Below are positions 6,693 through 48,804 of a DNA stretch of 64,000 nucleotides, one piece after another (position 1 is the stretch's first letter; the number at the start of each line of letters is the position of its first letter). Under the pieces are notes generated by a model. The model was not told the origin of the DNA and made no database searches. It was given only the letters and a program-made list of their open reading frames with translations. The DNA is from Rufibacter sp. DG15C (lineage in GTDB: Bacteria; Bacteroidota; Bacteroidia; Cytophagales; Hymenobacteraceae), in NCBI RefSeq assembly GCF_001577755.1, contig NZ_CP010776.1, positions 1,364,001 through 1,428,000 on the forward strand. Direction: 5' to 3'. Both the position numbers and the translations under genes were made by a program.

Positions 6693-6713
6693 GGTTTGCC
6701 AAGCAGCGGTTTT

Positions 6714-6750
6714 GTTTTTAGCTTGTTTTCTGGGATTCAGGCAGAAAACG
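6714..6750. repeat. Intergenic palindrome, copy 4
   Basis: Left arm GTTTTTAGCTTGTTTTC, right arm GATTCAGGCAGAAAACG. Located 21 nt after the RlpA-like stop; several pairs are lost. Confidence 0.75.
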
Positions 6751-6798
6751 GTTTTATTCTTTCGCTGGTGAAGGTGGTTTCATCATTGAATTCTTGCC

Positions 6799-7196
6799 AT
6801 TGTTGGTGTTCTCACCAATAACTAAACCTGCCTATCAATTTGTCATTGTGCACGGCTTTGGCTGTTCCTGAGAAAGCCCGTTTTATCCGGTGCCCTTATG
6901 CTGCCATGTTTCATTTTCACCGCCAAGCGCTCACGGCCGCGAGGCCCCGTCTTCCCGCCTCGCGCTGTACCAGCTTGCCTACTTTTCATAGATGCTCCCT
7001 TGTATTAGCTGAGCGGTATCGCTTTGTAGTGACCGCTGTCCTGCCAGAGGCGGCAACCTGCTTAGGCGACTCGCCGGAAAGACTGGATCAGGTGCTAGTA
7101 GCAAAGACCTTTGCCAAACGCAGATTCTCCCCTTGAGGATTGCCCAAACGAGAGTTTGAGGCAGCGAGCGGTAGCTCTGTAGAGGGGTGTCTACAT
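6799..7196. repeat. Long dispersed intergenic element, copy A
   Basis: About 400 nt that matches 32291..32717 in blocks with variable segments between. Shared blocks include the GC-rich GCCCCGTCTTCCCGCCTCGC and the stretches CCTGCTTAGGCGACTCG, CCTTTGCCAAACGCAG, ATTCTCCCCTTGAGGATTG and AGAGGGGTGT. A hairpin with a GAGA loop (CAAAC-GAGA-GTTTG) lies near its right end. Reading frames differ between copies: the CAA in the most open frame here is a stop (TAA) in the other copy. It therefore does not look protein-coding. Nature unknown: structured RNA, mobile relic or other repeat. Confidence 0.75.
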
Positions 7197-7245
7197 CAAA
7201 AGATAAATCAACTAACAATCAACAACCAGCAATCAACAATTTGCC

Positions 7246-7283
7246 CGTTTTTGGCTTGTTTTCTGGAAAATAGCCCAAAAACG
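7246..7283. repeat. Intergenic palindrome, copy 5
   Basis: Left arm CGTTTTTGGCTTGTTTTC, right arm GAAAATAGCCCAAAAACG, in a convergent gap. It is flanked on both sides by short degenerate units of the type AACAACCAGCAATCAACAAT. Confidence 0.85.
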
Positions 7284-7410
7284 CATCTGAACCTGAAATC
7301 AACCAGCAATTGACAATTAACAACCAGCAATTCCATCAAAGAAAAAGCCCTGGCAGCGTGCGCTACTCAGGGCCTCTTCACCTGTCAAGGATGCTAAAGG
7401 AAAGGTTGAG

Positions 7411-24720: not shown

Positions 24721-24776
24721 AGCGGCCCTCGTTTTTGGCCTGTTTTCTGGAAAACAGGCCAAAAACGAGGGCCGCT
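24721..24776. repeat. Intergenic palindrome, copy 14, perfect with extended arms
   Basis: The core 24730-24767 is extended by AGCGGCCCT on the left and AGGGCCGCT on the right, so the full 56 nt is palindromic apart from the central CTGG. A CTTT follows. It lies 28 nt after the cyanophycinase-like stop, in a convergent gap. Confidence 0.92.
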
Positions 24777-29250: not shown

Positions 29251-32115
29251 TTAATGGGCCTGTAGCCAATTCTCGCCGGTGCCCATGCCAACTTCCATAG
29301 GCACGCTCAGCGGGAAGGCATTCTTCATAAGCTCCTCCACTTTGGCTTGTACTATTGGTAGTTCTTCTTTGAGCACGTCAAACACTAATTCATCATGCAC
29401 CTGCAAGATCATGCGGCTGGCCAGTTTCTCATCGCGTAGCCACTGGTCAATGTTGATCATAGCAATCTTGATGATGTCGGCCGCCGTGCCCTGGATTGGG
29501 GCGTTGATGGCATTTCGTTCGGCGTAGCCACGTACGTTCTGGTTACGGCTATTGATGTCCCTTAAGTAGCGTCTACGGCCCAGCAAGGTCTCCACAAACT
29601 CCTGCTCACGGGCTTCGTTGATGGCACTGTCCATGTACTGCTTCACCGCCGGAAACTCCTGGAAGTACGCCTCAATAATCTCGGCGGCCTCTCTTCTTGG
29701 AATAGCCAGACGCTCTGCCAGCCCAAACGCCGAAATACCGTAGATAATCCCGAAGTTAATGGTTTTGGCCTTCCGGCGCATGTCACTGTCTACTTGGTCC
29801 ACGGGCACGTGGAACACCTTGGCCGCGGTAGACGAGTGAATATCCAGGCCCTTCTGGAACGCTTCTTTCATGGTGGCGTCATTACTGAAATGCGCCATGA
29901 TGCGTAGCTCAATCTGCGAGTAATCCGCGGACAGCAGGACGTGGTTTTCATCCCTCGGCACAAAGGCTTTGCGTATCTCCCGCCCTTTCTCTGTGCGAAT
30001 GGGGATATTCTGCAGGTTGGGATTGGTGGAGCTCAAACGGCCCGTCGCGGCCACGGCTTGGTTGTAGGACGTGTGCAAACGGTTATCCTCACGGCAAATC
30101 AATTGCGGCAATGCGTCTACGTACGTGCTCTTCAATTTAGTAAGCTGCCGGTGATCCAGAATCAACGCGACAATCTCATGCTCAAAGGCCAGCTTAGATA
30201 GAATCTCCTCGCCGGTAGCATACTGGCCCGTCTTGGTTTTCTTAATCTTGTTCCCTCCCAACTGCAGGCGGTCAAATAACACCTCGCCCAGCTGTTTAGG
30301 TGACCCGATGTTGAACTCCATGCCGGCCAGGTTGAAGATTTTCTGCTCAATCTCCTGGATGCTGGTTTGCAGCACTTGAGAGGATTCTCCCAAGGCTTCG
30401 GCGTCAATGCTCACGCCCTCACGTTCCATGTGACCCAGCACGCGCAACAATGGGTTCTCCACCTCATTGAAGAGCTTCTTAAGGCCTTGTTTCTCCAACA
30501 GCGGGTCAAAGTAGTTCTTAAGTTGAAGCGTGACGTCCGCGTCCTCGCAAGCGTATTCATAGATTTGGAGCGGTGGCAGCTTATCCATGGTGAGCTGGTT
30601 CTTGCCTTTGCCTAACAGCGTCTCAATGGCAATAGGCGTGTAATGCAAGTACGTCTCAGCGAGCAGGTCCATGTTGTGGCGCATGTCGGGCTCCAGGAGG
30701 TAGTGGGCCAGCATGGTGTCATAGAGCGGTCCCTGTACGTCAATGCCGTAGCGTTGTAGCACCACTAGGTCATACTTGATGTTCTGGCCAATCTTGGTGA
30801 TGCTAGGGCTTTCCAGTATTTCCTTGAACTCCTGCACAATCTCTAGGGTAGCCTCATAGTCATCTGCCGGCACCGGAATGTAATAGGCCTCGCCGGGGAT
30901 GTAACAGAACGAGATGCCCACCAAGCGTGCGGTGATGGCGTCTATGCTGGTGGTCTCGGTGTCAAAAGAGACTTCCTTCTGGAGTTTCAGGTATTTTAAA
31001 AGTTGCGCTCGCTGCTCTGGGGTGGTAAGCAGGTGGTACTCATGCAGGGTAGTGTCAATAGTTTTTCTGACGCCTGTGATATAGGTACCTGCGGTGGTTT
31101 CCTCGCCTTCTTCCTGGACAACGGTCTCATTGGCGGGCATGTCAAACAGAGACGTCTGGCCCATGGGCTTGTCTGATTTGAAGCCTTTGCCCACCGTGGG
31201 CTTGTTGGAAATGGGTTTGGGGACGGCGGGCGAGGCGGTACCCAGCACGCGGGTAGCCAGTTGCCTGAACTCCAGTTCGTCAAAGAGTGCCGCCAGTTTC
31301 TCCACATCTGGCCCTTCATAAAACAGGCCTTGCTCGTCAAAGTCAATGGGCACGTCCAGATGGATGGTGGCCAGTTCTTTGGACATGAGGCCCTGCTCCG
31401 CGAACTTCTCCACGTTCTCCTTTTGCTTGCCTTTCAACTCATGCGAGTGGGCAATAAGGTTCTCTACCGAACCGTATTTCTGAATGAGCGTCTTCGCGGT
31501 TTTCTCGCCAATGCCCGGGATGCCCGGGATGTTGTCCACGGCATCCCCTTGCAAACCTAGAATGTCAATGACTTGTTTTACATCGCTTATTTCCCAGCGC
31601 TCCAGCACTTTGGGCTTGTCAATCACTTCTATGGCATTGCCCAAGAACGCGGGCTTGTAGACAAACACATGGTCTGTTACCAATTGGTAGTAGTCCTTGT
31701 CTGGCGTCATCATGAAGACGTCGTACCCGGCCTTCTCGGCTTTGCAGGAAAGCGTGCCTATGATGTCATCGGCCTCAAAACCGTCCAGCATCATGCCTGG
31801 TATGCCAAAGGCCTCCACAATCTTCTTCACATAGGGGATGGCGATGGAAATATCTTCGGGCATAGCCTGGCGGTTGGCCTTATATTCCACGAAGCTGTCA
31901 TGCCTAAACGTCTTGGACGGCGCATCATAGCAGACCCCAATGTGCGTGGGCTTTTCGCGGTTGAGCAGGTCTACTAAGGTGTTGGTGAAGCCCAGCGCGG
32001 CGCCGGTGTTCATGCCCTTGGAGTTGATTCTAGGATTCTTACTGAACGCGAAGTGGGCGCGGTAAATGAGCGCCATGGCGTCTAAAAGGAAAAGGCGTTT
32101 GTCTGGTGTACTCAT
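29251..32115 (-). CDS. polA: DNA polymerase I
   Basis: 954 residues, with all three domains. The N-terminal 5'-nuclease domain carries FLLDAMALIYRAHFAF, DGFEADDIIGTL, GDAVDNIPGIPGIGEKTA. The 3'-5' exonuclease keeps its metal residues (VSFDTETTSIDA, NIKYDLVVL, YACEDADVTL), so proofreading should be active. The polymerase has motif A LLSADYSQIELRI, motif B RRKAKTINFGIIYG and motif C QVHDELVFDV. It fills gaps and removes primers in replication and repair. A -7-like TACCTTCG box lies at 32123-32130, giving a very short or no leader. Confidence 0.97.
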   Translation of the reverse strand: MSTPDKRLFLLDAMALIYRAHFAFSKNPRINSKGMNTGAALGFTNTLVDLLNREKPTHIGVCYDAPSKTFRHDSFVEYKANRQAMPEDISIAIPYVKKIVEAFGIPGMMLDGFEADDIIGTLSCKAEKAGYDVFMMTPDKDYYQLVTDHVFVYKPAFLGNAIEVIDKPKVLERWEISDVKQVIDILGLQGDAVDNIPGIPGIGEKTAKTLIQKYGSVENLIAHSHELKGKQKENVEKFAEQGLMSKELATIHLDVPIDFDEQGLFYEGPDVEKLAALFDELEFRQLATRVLGTASPAVPKPISNKPTVGKGFKSDKPMGQTSLFDMPANETVVQEEGEETTAGTYITGVRKTIDTTLHEYHLLTTPEQRAQLLKYLKLQKEVSFDTETTSIDAITARLVGISFCYIPGEAYYIPVPADDYEATLEIVQEFKEILESPSITKIGQNIKYDLVVLQRYGIDVQGPLYDTMLAHYLLEPDMRHNMDLLAETYLHYTPIAIETLLGKGKNQLTMDKLPPLQIYEYACEDADVTLQLKNYFDPLLEKQGLKKLFNEVENPLLRVLGHMEREGVSIDAEALGESSQVLQTSIQEIEQKIFNLAGMEFNIGSPKQLGEVLFDRLQLGGNKIKKTKTGQYATGEEILSKLAFEHEIVALILDHRQLTKLKSTYVDALPQLICREDNRLHTSYNQAVAATGRLSSTNPNLQNIPIRTEKGREIRKAFVPRDENHVLLSADYSQIELRIMAHFSNDATMKEAFQKGLDIHSSTAAKVFHVPVDQVDSDMRRKAKTINFGIIYGISAFGLAERLAIPRREAAEIIEAYFQEFPAVKQYMDSAINEAREQEFVETLLGRRRYLRDINSRNQNVRGYAERNAINAPIQGTAADIIKIAMINIDQWLRDEKLASRMILQVHDELVFDVLKEELPIVQAKVEELMKNAFPLSVPMEVGMGTGENWLQAH

Positions 32116-32122
32116 AGGCTAG

Positions 32123-32130
32123 CGAAGGTA
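32123..32130 (-). promoter_or_regulatory. Possible -7 box of polA
   Basis: TACCTTCG on the minus strand differs from TAnnTTTG at one base. It ends only 7 nt before the ATG at 32115, which would give a nearly leaderless transcript. Confidence 0.35.
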
Positions 32131-32200
32131 CAAGCAATGCGTCTGCTGTGCAACGGTGTTGTTTATTTAACTGAAGACGCGGCAGAAAGTTAGGGGAAAG

Positions 32201-32238
32201 CGTTTTTGGCTTGTTTTCTAGGAATTAGGAGGAAAATG
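32201..32238. repeat. Intergenic palindrome, copy 16
   Basis: Left arm CGTTTTTGGCTTGTTTTC, right arm GAATTAGGAGGAAAATG; the right half is decayed. Upstream of polA. Confidence 0.7.
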
Positions 32239-32290
32239 GATTTGATTGTCGATTGTGGATTGGCTAGGCTGTAGCTACACTGCCCGCCGT

Positions 32291-32717
32291 TGTGTTATCA
32301 CCAATGACATAGACTGCCTTCAAACAACTTTGTCTATGACGCGCATGATACTACCCTGACTCCCTCTGCCGTGCACTACCATTGGGGCTATGCCTGAGAA
32401 GATCTTTCCTTCCGGTGCTCTTATGCCACCCTGTTTCATTTTGACCGCTAAGCGCTCGCGGCCGCGGGGCCCCGTCTTCCCGCCTCGCGCTGTACCAGCT
32501 TGCCTCTTCTTCGTGGTTTCTTCCTATGTTATTTAAACTTACTTGCTGTGTTGTAACCGCTGGTCAGTCAGAGACGGCAACCTGCTTAGGCGACTCGACG
32601 GAAGGACTGGAATAGGTGCGTTTGGTTAAGGCCTTTGCCAAACGCAGATTCTCCCCTTGAGGATTGCTCAAACGAGAGTTTGAGGCAGCGAGCGTAGCTC
32701 AGTAGAGGGGTGTTTAC
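32291..32717. repeat. Long dispersed intergenic element, copy B
   Basis: Matches 6799..7196 over its whole length with block-wise identity. Blocks: TTTCATTTTGACCGC, the GC-rich CGTCTTCCCGCCTCGCGCTG, CAACCTGCTTAGGCGACTCG, GCCTTTGCCAAACGCAGATT, and AGAGGGGTGT. The hairpin near the right end is fully paired here (CTCAAAC-GAGA-GTTTGAG). The middle segments differ in length and sequence, which excludes a shared coding frame. Confidence 0.75.
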
Positions 32718-32752
32718 GCGAGCAGATGAACCTTGCAAAAGAAAGCAATGTG

Positions 32753-32783
32753 TGGGAGACTAGGCACTGCCTTGTCTCTACAT
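32753..32783. repeat. Small palindrome of a second family, copy 2
   Basis: GGCACTGCCTTGTCTCTAC matches GGCACCGCCTTGTCTCTGC at 20496-20514. The left arm here (TGGGAGACTA) is decayed. Confidence 0.5.
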
Positions 32784-32846
32784 TATCTCAAACATCAGCC
32801 CTCTCATCCTAGCATTCTCCCTCTAGGAGAAGGGACGGTGCTTTTC

Positions 32847-32883
32847 TGTTTTGGGTTGTTTTCCAGAAAACAGGCTAAAAACG
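32847..32883. repeat. Intergenic palindrome, copy 17
   Basis: Left arm TGTTTTGGGTTGTTTTC, right arm GAAAACAGGCTAAAAACG. It lies 11 nt beyond the stop of the permease gene. Confidence 0.85.
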
Positions 32884-32894
32884 GAATTCAGGAA

Positions 32895-34118
32895 TTACAG
32901 ATTCTCTCTGATGGAAAGGGAAGCGGCTTTGCGGGCGGGACGGATGGAGACCAGCAAGGTAATAATAACAATGGCGGCGGCGGTGAACAGAAAGTCCTCC
33001 ACGCGCATGAGCACGGGGTAAGCTTCTACCACTGAGGTCGTCATGCCCATGGACACGATGCCGAAGGTCTGTTGCGCCCAGCAGATGCCTCCGCCAATCA
33101 CCAAACCCACCACGGCCCCGGTAAACGCAACAATGGCACCCTCTAGTAAGAAGATCTTCCGGATGGTGCCTGGGTCGGCACCCATAGAGGCTAGGATGGC
33201 GATGTCTTTCTGCTTGTCCAGAACTAGCATGGACAGCGAGAAGAAGATGTTGATGGAGGCTATGAGCAAGACAAACGTAAAGGTCACAAACACAAACAGC
33301 TTCTCTACCTTGACGGCGCGCAGAAGGCTCACGTGCTGCTCCTCGCTGTTCTGTACTTGAAAGCCCGACCCCAATTTCTCCTGTAAGGCGTTTTTAATCT
33401 GGTCAATGTTGTCCGGCGAATTGGCCTTCACCTCAATGGACGTGCGCTTGTTCTCATAGCCTAACAATTCCTGGGCAAATTCTAGCGGCACAAACACGTA
33501 CTGGTCGTCATACTGCCGCTCAATGGCAAACACGCCACCCGCCTGAATGCCCAATTGCCTGAACGCGTTTTCTGGGTTTAAGGTGACTTTCTTACCCGCC
33601 TTAGGGTACATGAACTGTAATGGTGAGAATGGATTCTCGGGCCGTATAGACAACTGATATTGCACGCCGCGGCCAATGAGCGCATACTGCTGCTCGCCGC
33701 GTTTCAGGCGGCGGTCTCCGTCTACAATAGCAGAGTCAATCTGGTTTTGTTTGTAGTAATTGTCACTCACGCCTTTGATCTTGACTACCATCTGGCGGTC
33801 ATTGTAGCGGAGCAGGGCGTTGTCTTCTATGACCTCGGTGAGCAGGACCACGCCGGGCGTTTTCTTGATGCGCTCCAAAAAGGCGGCATCGGTTTCAAAG
33901 GACTTGCCTTCTACTGAGGTGATCTTGATTTCGGGGTCAAACTTGCCGTACAGAGACCTGATCAAATCTTCTAGTCCGTTGAACACGGACAAGACCACAA
34001 TAAGCGCCATGGTGCCTACGCCCACGCCAATCATGGCAATGATGGAGATGATGTTGATGATGTTGCGCTTCTTCTTGGTGAAGAAGTACCGCTTCGCGAT
34101 AAAAAGGGCAACGTTCAT
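32895..34118 (-). CDS. LolC/LolE-type ABC transporter permease (FtsX family)
   Basis: 407 residues. One N-terminal helix (IINIISIIAMIGVGVGTMALIVVLSVFNG) is followed by a large periplasmic MacB/LolE-like domain (about 45-270) and three C-terminal helices with the FtsX-type LDKQKDIAILASMGADPGTIRKIF motif. It is the membrane subunit of a system that releases lipoproteins from the inner membrane. The ATPase (LolD) gene is not in the window. The gene follows rbfA, the methyltransferase and the GNAT gene on the same strand, though gaps of 0.1-0.2 kb hold separate elements. Confidence 0.92.
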   Translation of the reverse strand: MNVALFIAKRYFFTKKKRNIINIISIIAMIGVGVGTMALIVVLSVFNGLEDLIRSLYGKFDPEIKITSVEGKSFETDAAFLERIKKTPGVVLLTEVIEDNALLRYNDRQMVVKIKGVSDNYYKQNQIDSAIVDGDRRLKRGEQQYALIGRGVQYQLSIRPENPFSPLQFMYPKAGKKVTLNPENAFRQLGIQAGGVFAIERQYDDQYVFVPLEFAQELLGYENKRTSIEVKANSPDNIDQIKNALQEKLGSGFQVQNSEEQHVSLLRAVKVEKLFVFVTFTFVLLIASINIFFSLSMLVLDKQKDIAILASMGADPGTIRKIFLLEGAIVAFTGAVVGLVIGGGICWAQQTFGIVSMGMTTSVVEAYPVLMRVEDFLFTAAAIVIITLLVSIRPARKAASLSIRENL

Positions 34119-40582: not shown

Positions 40583-42631
40583 TTATTCTTTAATCAAGCG
40601 AGTGGTCTTGGTAGTACCATCTACTTGCGTAGTCAGGAAGTACAAGCCAGTCTTTAGGTTAGTAGGCAAGTTTACTAAGATATTGCTAACACCTACTTCT
40701 ACTGAAATAGATTTTGCAAACACTTTATAGCCCCTAGCATCATAAAGCGTGGCCACCATTTCGCCAGCCTGCTCTACTTCTACCTCAAGATTTACTTGCT
40801 CCTTAAATGGATTTGGATACACATTTACCAAACCTTTTCCTTTGGCAGCCTGCTTAATGTTTACAGACACTACTTTACTGTATTCAAACGCACCGTCCGT
40901 ATCTACTTGCTTTAAGCGGTAGTATACTGTAGTACCCCTGGCAGCAGTAGCATCTAAGAACTCATATGAAAGTAAGGTGTTGCTGTTACCGTTTTGGGTG
41001 ATTACACGTCCCAACGTCTTGAACTCACCTGACTTCAAGTTGTTTGTAGACTGAACTTCAAAATAAGCGTTGTCCTTCTCAGAAGCAGTTTGCCAAGATA
41101 GTTTAGCGCCAACCGTAGTTGGAGTAGCAGTGAAGTTTACTAACTCAACTGGCAGGGGAGTAGATTCAACTGTAAACACATCCTGGCTTTCTGCAAGACC
41201 GGCATCGTCCACAATAGTAATGATGCCCGTTCCGGAACCCTCTGGCACCACGGCGCGAATCTGGGTTGGGCTGTCAAACCCAATTATGTCTGCGAAGACA
41301 TAGCCTCCATTGCCGTCACTGAATGCTAGGGCGAAGTTCTCCGTGAAGCCTGAACCAGTAATAATTACTTCATCTCCTACTTTACCAGCACCTGGGCTAA
41401 ATGAAGAAATACCAAAAACGGTAAAGACATCCGAACTCTCGGCAAGGCCCGCGTCGTCCACCACAGTGATGATGCCAGTACCGGCGCCCTGTGGTACCAC
41501 GGCCCGAATTTGCGAAGAGTTGTCGAAGTTGATTACATCCGCGAAAACATAGCCACCTTCCCCGTCACTGAAGGCCAAGGCGAAGTTCTCCGTGAAGCCC
41601 GAACCTATTACAGTAACCTCTGTACCTACAGGACCTACCGCTGGAGAAAAGGAAGTAATTGTTAATACCTCTACTGCAGTACCTGATAATTTAATCAAAT
41701 AAGGATTCTCATCAGAGTCATTGTTGGGAATAGACAAAGTTGCATCTATCTTCAGTGCAGGAGTTGCATTGGTAGGCTTGAATGAAACTGTGAATGTGGT
41801 GCTTCCACCAGTGACAATGGATGCGGTTGGTTGACTGGTTACTTCAAATTGATTAGCGTCTGTACCAAGTATGGTCACATTACCAGTTATGGAAAGTGTG
41901 CTTCCTGTATTTTTAATAGTAAACGTGGCAGGGGTTGTAGTGCCTACGTCTTGACTCCCAAAATCAAAAGGTATAGCTGAACCAGAAGTAAAGGCCACCC
42001 CTCCGGCTTCCACAGAGATTTCTGGGGTTCCTGTAATGGCGACATTATCAATACCTACACTAGCAAGCGCCTCTGATCCTTGCTGAGCATATCTTATTCT
42101 AATGCTTCTTGCATTTGCATGTGGTGTAAAAGTAATGAGAGTTCCAGCAGCTGTAGTAGCCAGTGACGTAGTTTGCTGTTTTGGTAAGGTGTTATATCCT
42201 GAACTGCCATCAGCAAGTGTTGACTGCTCTACAACCAAAATACCTCCAGTGAATCCAGGACTTGTTGTTCCTGAAGTTGCTCTTACACGAGCATTAAATG
42301 ATATTGCACCTGGCCTTTGATCAAATGCAATAGAAATATAATCGCCATCACTATTAGATATACCTGAACCACCTAATGCTAATTTGGCTGACACAAGTGG
42401 CAATGTGCTAGTACCACCAATCTCACCTGAAAAGGTCTGAGCATTGCTTCTAGACCATCCAGAGGGTAAAGGATAAGATGCTTGCCCCCAGTTGCTTCGG
42501 TTTGTATAAGGCAGAGATGCTGTTTGTGCAAATACATTAATTGTTGAAAACAGGCTTAGAAAGGCCAAAAGCATTACTGCGCGTACCCCTCTTAATCCCT
42601 TTAAATTGACACTGAGTAAAGTTTGTTTCAT
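40583..42631 (-). CDS. T9SS cargo protein with choice-of-anchor D and two IPT domains
   Basis: 682 residues. Signal peptide ends near VFAQ. Residues about 38-200 look like a jelly-roll carbohydrate-binding or adhesive domain (ARSIRIRYAQQG). The choice-of-anchor D domain spans about 203-320 (FDFGSQDVGTTTPATFTIKNTG). Two IPT/TIG domains of about 83 residues each (from about 325 and 408) are about 80 percent identical. An FN3-like part (LPVELVNFTATPTTVGAKLSW) precedes the C-terminal type IX sorting domain (VYPNPFKEQVNLEVE to KTGLYFLTTQ). It is exported and attached to or released from the cell surface. Role probably adhesive. Confidence 0.92.
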   Translation of the reverse strand: MKQTLLSVNLKGLRGVRAVMLLAFLSLFSTINVFAQTASLPYTNRSNWGQASYPLPSGWSRSNAQTFSGEIGGTSTLPLVSAKLALGGSGISNSDGDYISIAFDQRPGAISFNARVRATSGTTSPGFTGGILVVEQSTLADGSSGYNTLPKQQTTSLATTAAGTLITFTPHANARSIRIRYAQQGSEALASVGIDNVAITGTPEISVEAGGVAFTSGSAIPFDFGSQDVGTTTPATFTIKNTGSTLSITGNVTILGTDANQFEVTSQPTASIVTGGSTTFTVSFKPTNATPALKIDATLSIPNNDSDENPYLIKLSGTAVEVLTITSFSPAVGPVGTEVTVIGSGFTENFALAFSDGEGGYVFADVINFDNSSQIRAVVPQGAGTGIITVVDDAGLAESSDVFTVFGISSFSPGAGKVGDEVIITGSGFTENFALAFSDGNGGYVFADIIGFDSPTQIRAVVPEGSGTGIITIVDDAGLAESQDVFTVESTPLPVELVNFTATPTTVGAKLSWQTASEKDNAYFEVQSTNNLKSGEFKTLGRVITQNGNSNTLLSYEFLDATAARGTTVYYRLKQVDTDGAFEYSKVVSVNIKQAAKGKGLVNVYPNPFKEQVNLEVEVEQAGEMVATLYDARGYKVFAKSISVEVGVSNILVNLPTNLKTGLYFLTTQVDGTTKTTRLIKE

Positions 42632-48660: not shown

Positions 48661-48699
48661 TAGGTCCAATTAACAGGAAGCAGTGAACAGCTACTCAAC

Positions 48700-48737
48700 C
48701 GTTTTTGGCCTGTTTTCTAGGAAAGAGGCCAAAAACG
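48700..48737. repeat. Intergenic palindrome, copy 23
   Basis: Left arm CGTTTTTGGCCTGTTTTC, right arm GAAAGAGGCCAAAAACG, after the inositol phosphatase gene. Confidence 0.87.
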
Positions 48738-48804
48738 ACTTCAAGGCAACAGCATCAGTATCCTTTAGCACACCTCACAATTCCGTCATCCCTTAAACTA
48801 TTTG

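Follow-up and report, generated by a model that had tools for sequence, protein, structure and literature searches.

Structured RNAs of bacteria are usually regarded as single genes or leaders, and dispersed repeats of bacteria as DNA palindromes. REP units are short, carry a GTAG- or GGAG-type tag and are arranged as inverted pairs. The RNA candidate families proposed by comparative genomics are mostly present once or a few times in a genome, beside set genes, and the GOLLD, ROOL and OLE RNAs have Rfam models. Outside bacteria, eukaryotic SINEs such as Alu are dispersed, high-copy, non-coding and bear a structured RNA.

Starting from a 64,000-nucleotide stretch of the Rufibacter sp. DG15C chromosome (hereafter the window), we recovered a large family of folded non-coding RNA elements that appears not to have been described before. 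The element is high-copy, intergenic and palindromic, with long-lived within-genome populations, as are the REPIN and REP-BIME repeats associated with RAYT (PMC3116915, PMC8049555). It departs from these repeats by a core of about 130–175 nt, covariation at the RNA level, a defined strand and the lack of any Y1/RAYT match in its own genome (G000, a single contig of 4.14 Mb). Detection by covariation and the lack of an assigned function are shared with the structured RNA candidates of comparative genomics (PMC2864571), from which the element differs by its dozens of copies and the lack of a fixed neighbour. The ornate large RNAs GOLLD, ROOL and OLE (PMC12286853) are likewise large conserved bacterial non-coding RNAs, but our element has no Rfam match in the window, a high copy number and a smaller core. 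Like Alu-type SINEs, the element is dispersed, high-copy, structured-RNA-bearing and non-coding; unlike them, it has no reverse transcriptase match in G000, and its copies occupy the same sites in different species and have been homogenised. A group II intron, a retron or another reverse-transcriptase element would require the enzyme (PF00078) that was not found in this genome. The literature on Rufibacter, on Hymenobacteraceae/Pontibacter and on structured RNAs of Bacteroidetes, in the portion covered (subscription journals and preprints lying outside its scope), held no mention of the element.

A preliminary description had reported two copies of a non-coding repeat in the window, with conserved blocks alternating with variable parts. 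Block alignment and blastn (E 5e-89) confirmed copies A and B (Table 1) as a single repeat, the two aligning in register without gaps over 150 nt (87%) and 115 nt (86%), and the block alternation was found in the copy alignments. Both copies are thus real, but their number had been set too low, as 41 blastn matches and 27 matches to an RNA covariance model (R1, described below) were found genome-wide. Thirteen long copies aligned end to end as one type (family I), while nine others (family II) had only the left half, in the orientation of the preliminary description, in common with them and ran on into a different right half. The element measures 350–430 nt, with the folded core inside it. Since 26 of the 27 copies found by R1 scored between 84 and 110 bits (the last one at 58 bits), the copies of this genome are not decayed.

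Table 1. Coordinates of the element and its parts in the window (position 1 is the first nucleotide of the window).
Feature	Position	Strand	Basis or content
Element, copy A	6799..7196	- (RNA sense)	repeat and genome-wide copies; strand from non-Watson-Crick cells and RNA-sense alignment
Element, copy B	32291..32717	- (RNA sense)	repeat and genome-wide copies; strand from non-Watson-Crick cells and RNA-sense alignment
Structured RNA core, copy A	6915..7090	-	R1, 92 bits, E 1.2e-22 (copy among the 64 sequences used to build R1)
Structured RNA core, copy B	32440..32614	-	R1, 93 bits, E 6.5e-23 (copy among the 64 sequences used to build R1)
Helix P1 5' strand, copy A	7073..7086	-	CCAGUCUUUCCGGC; RNA-sense alignment and R1
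Helix P1 3' strand, copy A	6947..6959	-	GGCGGGAAGACGG; RNA-sense alignment and R1
Hairpin P0, copy A	6935..6946	-	GGCC UCGC GGCC, then (RNA sense) near-invariant GUGAGCGC
Helix P1 5' strand, copy B	32597..32610	-	RNA-sense alignment and R1
Helix P1 3' strand, copy B	32472..32484	-	RNA-sense alignment and R1
Hairpin P0, copy B	32460..32471	-	alignments A1 and A2, covariation
End hairpin, copy A	6799..6822	-	plus strand TTGTTGGTG TTCT CACCAATAA; RNA-sense 3' end of conserved block; pairing judged by eye in 13-copy alignment
Module R, copy A	7108..7196	-	CCCCUCAAGGGG-type repeat with GAGA hairpin; also alone elsewhere in genome
Module R, copy B	32630..32717	-	also alone elsewhere in genome

The non-coding nature of the repeat, which a conserved reading frame was expected to refute, held across 223 copies: each of the six frames has stops in 122–221 of them, and the core lengths leave all three remainders when divided by three (85, 67 and 71 copies). 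A minus-strand peptide frame noticed by eye through the core of copy A was not open across copies and was rejected. Rfam 15 gave no match in the window, only sub-threshold matches in five further loci (E 0.027–0.97, all in L023 and outside its core); in three distant loci the matches, with E values up to 1, likewise stayed below threshold. The GAGA hairpin previously put forward as the notable structure of the element is present in the sequence, with C-A in copy A where copy B has T-A. However, it belongs to a separable module (module R) that also occurs alone in the genome, and therefore lies outside the conserved RNA core.

Module R (CCCCTTGAGG..GAGA hairpin..AGGGGTGTTTACA) is a dispersed repeat in its own right, standing alone for example at G000:C1:1205370-1205458. 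Eight right-end-only places from the blastn search of the genome were aligned, seven of them 88–98% alike and the eighth 79%, and close matches also occur in several relatives of the same genus.

The core itself is built, in RNA sense, as a long imperfect hairpin (P1, a tandem G-A step, P2, and P3 with a variable tip) directly followed by P0 and GUGAGCGC. Among 248 collected cores, 223 were kept (18 lacking the 3' pattern and 7 lying at locus ends were dropped), from which 117 representatives were chosen; 83 of these entered alignment A1 and 64 alignment A2, the members being hand-picked to limit size and L090 and L098 left out as over-long. A1 is a structure-blind MAFFT alignment scored against the named structure. 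The cores of both alignments were collected with a 3'-end pattern that itself prescribes part of the P1 3' strand. In A1, 83.6% of the cells are paired and 17 of 26 pairs show two-sided changes, amounting to 293 cells against 111.3±6.9 after shuffling (0/500); sliding the partner gave no more than 120. Without a given structure, RNAalifold recovered P0 and P1, with 8 of 16 pairs covarying. In the RNA-sense alignment A2, from which P3 was left out of the structure because its arms are out of register, 94.4% of the named pairs form and two-sided changes reach 133 against 44.6±5.4 in shuffles (0/500). One P1 position is U·G in 40, U-A in 10, G-C in 8 and C-G in 5 of the 64 sequences. Between P1 and P2, GAG faces CGA and is readable as tandem G·A pairs, at a place that the alignments give as Watson-Crick in L054, L162 and L168. 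Folded singly, the two window copies have an unremarkable energy (z 0.12 and -0.51), and a local hairpin CGCGRGG/CCTCGCG, attractive both by eye and in plus-strand folds of individual copies, was rejected with 2 two-sided cells against 1.6 in shuffles.

The alignment, folding and covariation suggested as a check by the preliminary description have thus been carried out, and its option of a structured RNA is strongly supported by A1, A2 and RNAalifold, with pairs covarying far above shuffles; its option of an unrecognised non-coding repeat was also right. Judging from these substitution patterns, selection almost certainly acts on the fold at the RNA level.

The strand of this RNA is indicated by the exceptions to Watson-Crick pairing. 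On the plus strand of A1, the non-Watson-Crick cells of P1 and P3 comprise 141 A·C, 3 G·T and 156 others, compared with 213, 76 and 369 in shuffled alignments. As A·C on the plus strand is G·U on the minus strand, the minus strand is very probably the one that carries the RNA, contrary to the orientation first adopted, and the RNA-sense alignment points the same way. Pairs that covary and include G-U on a single strand are the mark of a structured non-coding RNA, and they were observed here. A contrary column in P2 (53-157) has T-G in 77 of the 83 plus-strand sequences, hence A-C in RNA sense, and the structure used for A2 omits it. The same skew bears on the reading of the core as a DNA-level inverted repeat, acting as a cruciform or as a single-stranded DNA hairpin site. 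Its imperfect inverted repeat and the further palindromes crowding these intergenic regions would fit such a site, but a DNA hairpin should not tolerate A-C yet reject G-T on one strand (141 against 3), which makes this the least probable of the alternatives, and a very remote one.

The element is widespread among relatives. The genomes compared include Rufibacter, Sabulibacter ruber and several Pontibacter. A strict sequence pattern detected the core in all 16 genomes of the same genus, with 14–148 copies each, while the reversed pattern gave at most one match in any of them. R1 detected it in 45 of the 80 family genomes scanned, the top value of the per-genome counts meaning at least 41 copies; by hand count, the genera g1, g9, g82, g81, g8 and g83 contained it in 16/16, 21/23, 7/8, 1/2, 0/23 and 0/8 genomes, respectively. 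Further copies, which the preliminary description proposed to look for in related genomes, are thus present there. A patchy presence in g9 suggested by the strict patterns was discarded, as R1 finds the element in 21 of the 23 genomes and the cause is sequence divergence. Milder filters gave 20 weak matches in G160 and 1 in G163 (both g81), and 2 in G031. Among 98 genomes of the order, R1 matches were confined to G000 and to three genomes from other families (E 8e-9, 3e-8 and 6e-4), all three matches lying between reading frames. Loci L407, L408, L409 and L421 are few-copy R1 matches in other families of the order, the first three lying between reading frames, and may represent either relatives that have diverged from the high-copy family or its ancestors. 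A 231-base query had no match in the phage and plasmid collections, and carriage of the element by plasmid or phage was rejected.

The chromosomal sites were compared with 3 kb flanks for 25 copies of G000, 41 of G012 and 51 of G006, and 115 of these 117 copies are intergenic (no overlap with a frame of at least 200 codons). All four gene arrangements are occupied, by 41, 30, 23 and 21 of the 115 copies, the two overlapping copies being left out, so that the element does not keep to one place ahead of a single class of co-oriented gene. This distribution weighs on the possibility that the element acts in cis, as a leader or 3' UTR element of adjacent genes. In G000, where alone the neighbours were given names, 17 of 25 copies have a co-oriented gene downstream, and these genes, of mixed housekeeping function, include acetate-CoA ligase, PurN, HtpG, IMP dehydrogenase (guaB), PyrF, DnaK and polA, as a cis-acting element might have it. 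Over the three genomes, however, co-orientation falls to 64 of 115, with no clear preference, and different copies have different neighbours, so that a cis-acting role appears very unlikely.

A flanking gene was common to 34 cross-genome pairs of copies, 22 of them with the same side and strand, 4 mirrored and 8 arranged otherwise, where roughly one pair per genome comparison, in any arrangement, is expected by chance from gene numbers. Of 12 relatives, six have the core beside polA and six beside rlpA, with an orientation that never varies; the polA-fba region (presumably fba, as named from its first residues) has an apparently degenerate copy in G007, none in G003, G004, G009 and G010, and in G001 is cut by the end of a contig. 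These correspondences suggest that many sites are passed on by descent, or at any rate used again.

Several further features of these regions were noted. In the window (29251-34118), polA adjoins a MacB/FtsX-type permease gene, the two being far apart or on separate contigs in the 12 relatives; as the neighbour of polA thus differs from that in relatives, copy B adjoins a rearrangement. A palindrome of ~40 nt, CGTTTTTGGCCTGTTTTC..GAAAACAGGCCAAAAACG, occurs at 29 places in the window (e.g. 883-926, 24729-24772 and 48699-48742), flanks copy A (6712-6755 and 7245-7288) and copy B (32200-32243 and 32845-32888), and holds its position beside the element in two cross-species site pairs. Other small hairpin repeats of these intergenic regions include GGTTCAAGTCTGCGACTTGGACC and GGCAGTTTGCAACTGCC (right parts of L039-L047, L002 and L020), and low-complexity CAATTAACAATTGACAATCAGCAAT-type tracts lie directly beside many copies, as at 7207-7330. 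Elsewhere in the window (41168-41659), two 243-nt tandem copies, 73% identical, lie within a long reading frame.

Sequence versions are specific to species, with the fold kept. Mean identity within genomes was 0.80 (G000), 0.81 (G006) and 0.85 (G012), compared with 0.75–0.77 between these genomes, and 113 of 117 copies had their nearest neighbour in their own genome (40.9 in shuffles, maximum 57). By contrast, the 21 well-supported site pairs (of 34, leaving out the 8 arranged otherwise and 5 of the same orientation with weak flank support) had a mean identity of 0.749 against 0.758±0.006 for random cross-genome partners, and none ranked first. Nearest neighbours from the same genome, together with same-site pairs no more alike than random ones, argue that the genome's own version replaces the sequence at a site, and the copies within each genome have probably evolved in concert. 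Gene conversion fits this homogenisation best, its main rival being re-insertion at preferred sites. If each species had acquired its copies separately at the same favoured intergenic places, instead of by inheritance with gene conversion, this would also yield dissimilar copies at the same site, and would account for the four mirrored pairs and for the flanking palindromes found at corresponding places of common sites. We nevertheless consider it rather unlikely, as orientation is identical in 17 of the 21 site pairs, distances to flanking genes are nearly equal in several (255/256 and 201/201 nt), and the polA site is occupied in six relatives, apparently degenerate in one and empty in four.

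The way in which the copies spread raises the related question of mobility. A non-autonomous mobile element of SINE- or MITE-like type, spread in bursts by a mobiliser encoded elsewhere that recognises its RNA or DNA, with common sites being old insertions or preferred sites, would agree with the 14–148 copies per genome within the genus, with most copies occupying sites not common to different species, with the species-specific subtypes and with the scattered matches of one or two copies in other families of the order. However, neither the Y1 transposase of RAYT type (PF01797) nor the reverse transcriptase (PF00078) has any match in G000, and over 33 genomes the occurrence of neither family follows that of the element, PF01797 being present in 28 of them regardless of element content; both were rejected as drivers. 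A travelling protein gene was likewise rejected, since beside the copies only chance frames over the element and a few paralogues recur. No inverted terminal repeats were seen by eye in the 13-copy alignment, and few copies are decayed. Such a mobile element thus seems doubtful, and the earlier suggestion of a mobile relic is not borne out by a genome with no mobiliser found and 26 of 27 copies at 84–110 bits.

Bacteroidota promoters are of the -7/-33 type, and a motif of this type lay upstream of only 2 of 117 copies, so that an own promoter was rejected. As no promoter of its own was found, the RNA would arise from transcripts that read through the intergenic region around it. The lack of a mobiliser, of a travelling gene and of an own promoter, together with the mixed housekeeping neighbours, favours an RNA of this kind that would act independently of neighbouring genes and share a common partner. 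This partner would be bound through the invariant region of P0 and GUGAGCGC, a role that we put forward tentatively, as a possibility somewhat short of even. Copies would arise by occasional copying at the DNA level, and recombination between them (gene conversion) would keep them alike. Taken as a whole, this account of high-copy non-coding elements with a folded minus-strand RNA core, produced by read-through, bound by a partner and homogenised by gene conversion, is the one towards which we lean, with some confidence. A more speculative and distinctly unlikely view would make the family a bacterial analogue of SINEs, with RNA-bearing repeats persisting over the lifetime of a genus and being copied or homogenised through their own RNA or by RNA-guided recombination, fold and sites being kept.

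This family is both a structured RNA and a dispersed repeat, with up to about 150 copies per genome, almost certain selection at the RNA level and probable homogenisation across whole genomes. It offers a concrete system in which to address how bacterial repeats get copied and stay alike, and which partner may read the invariant hairpin.
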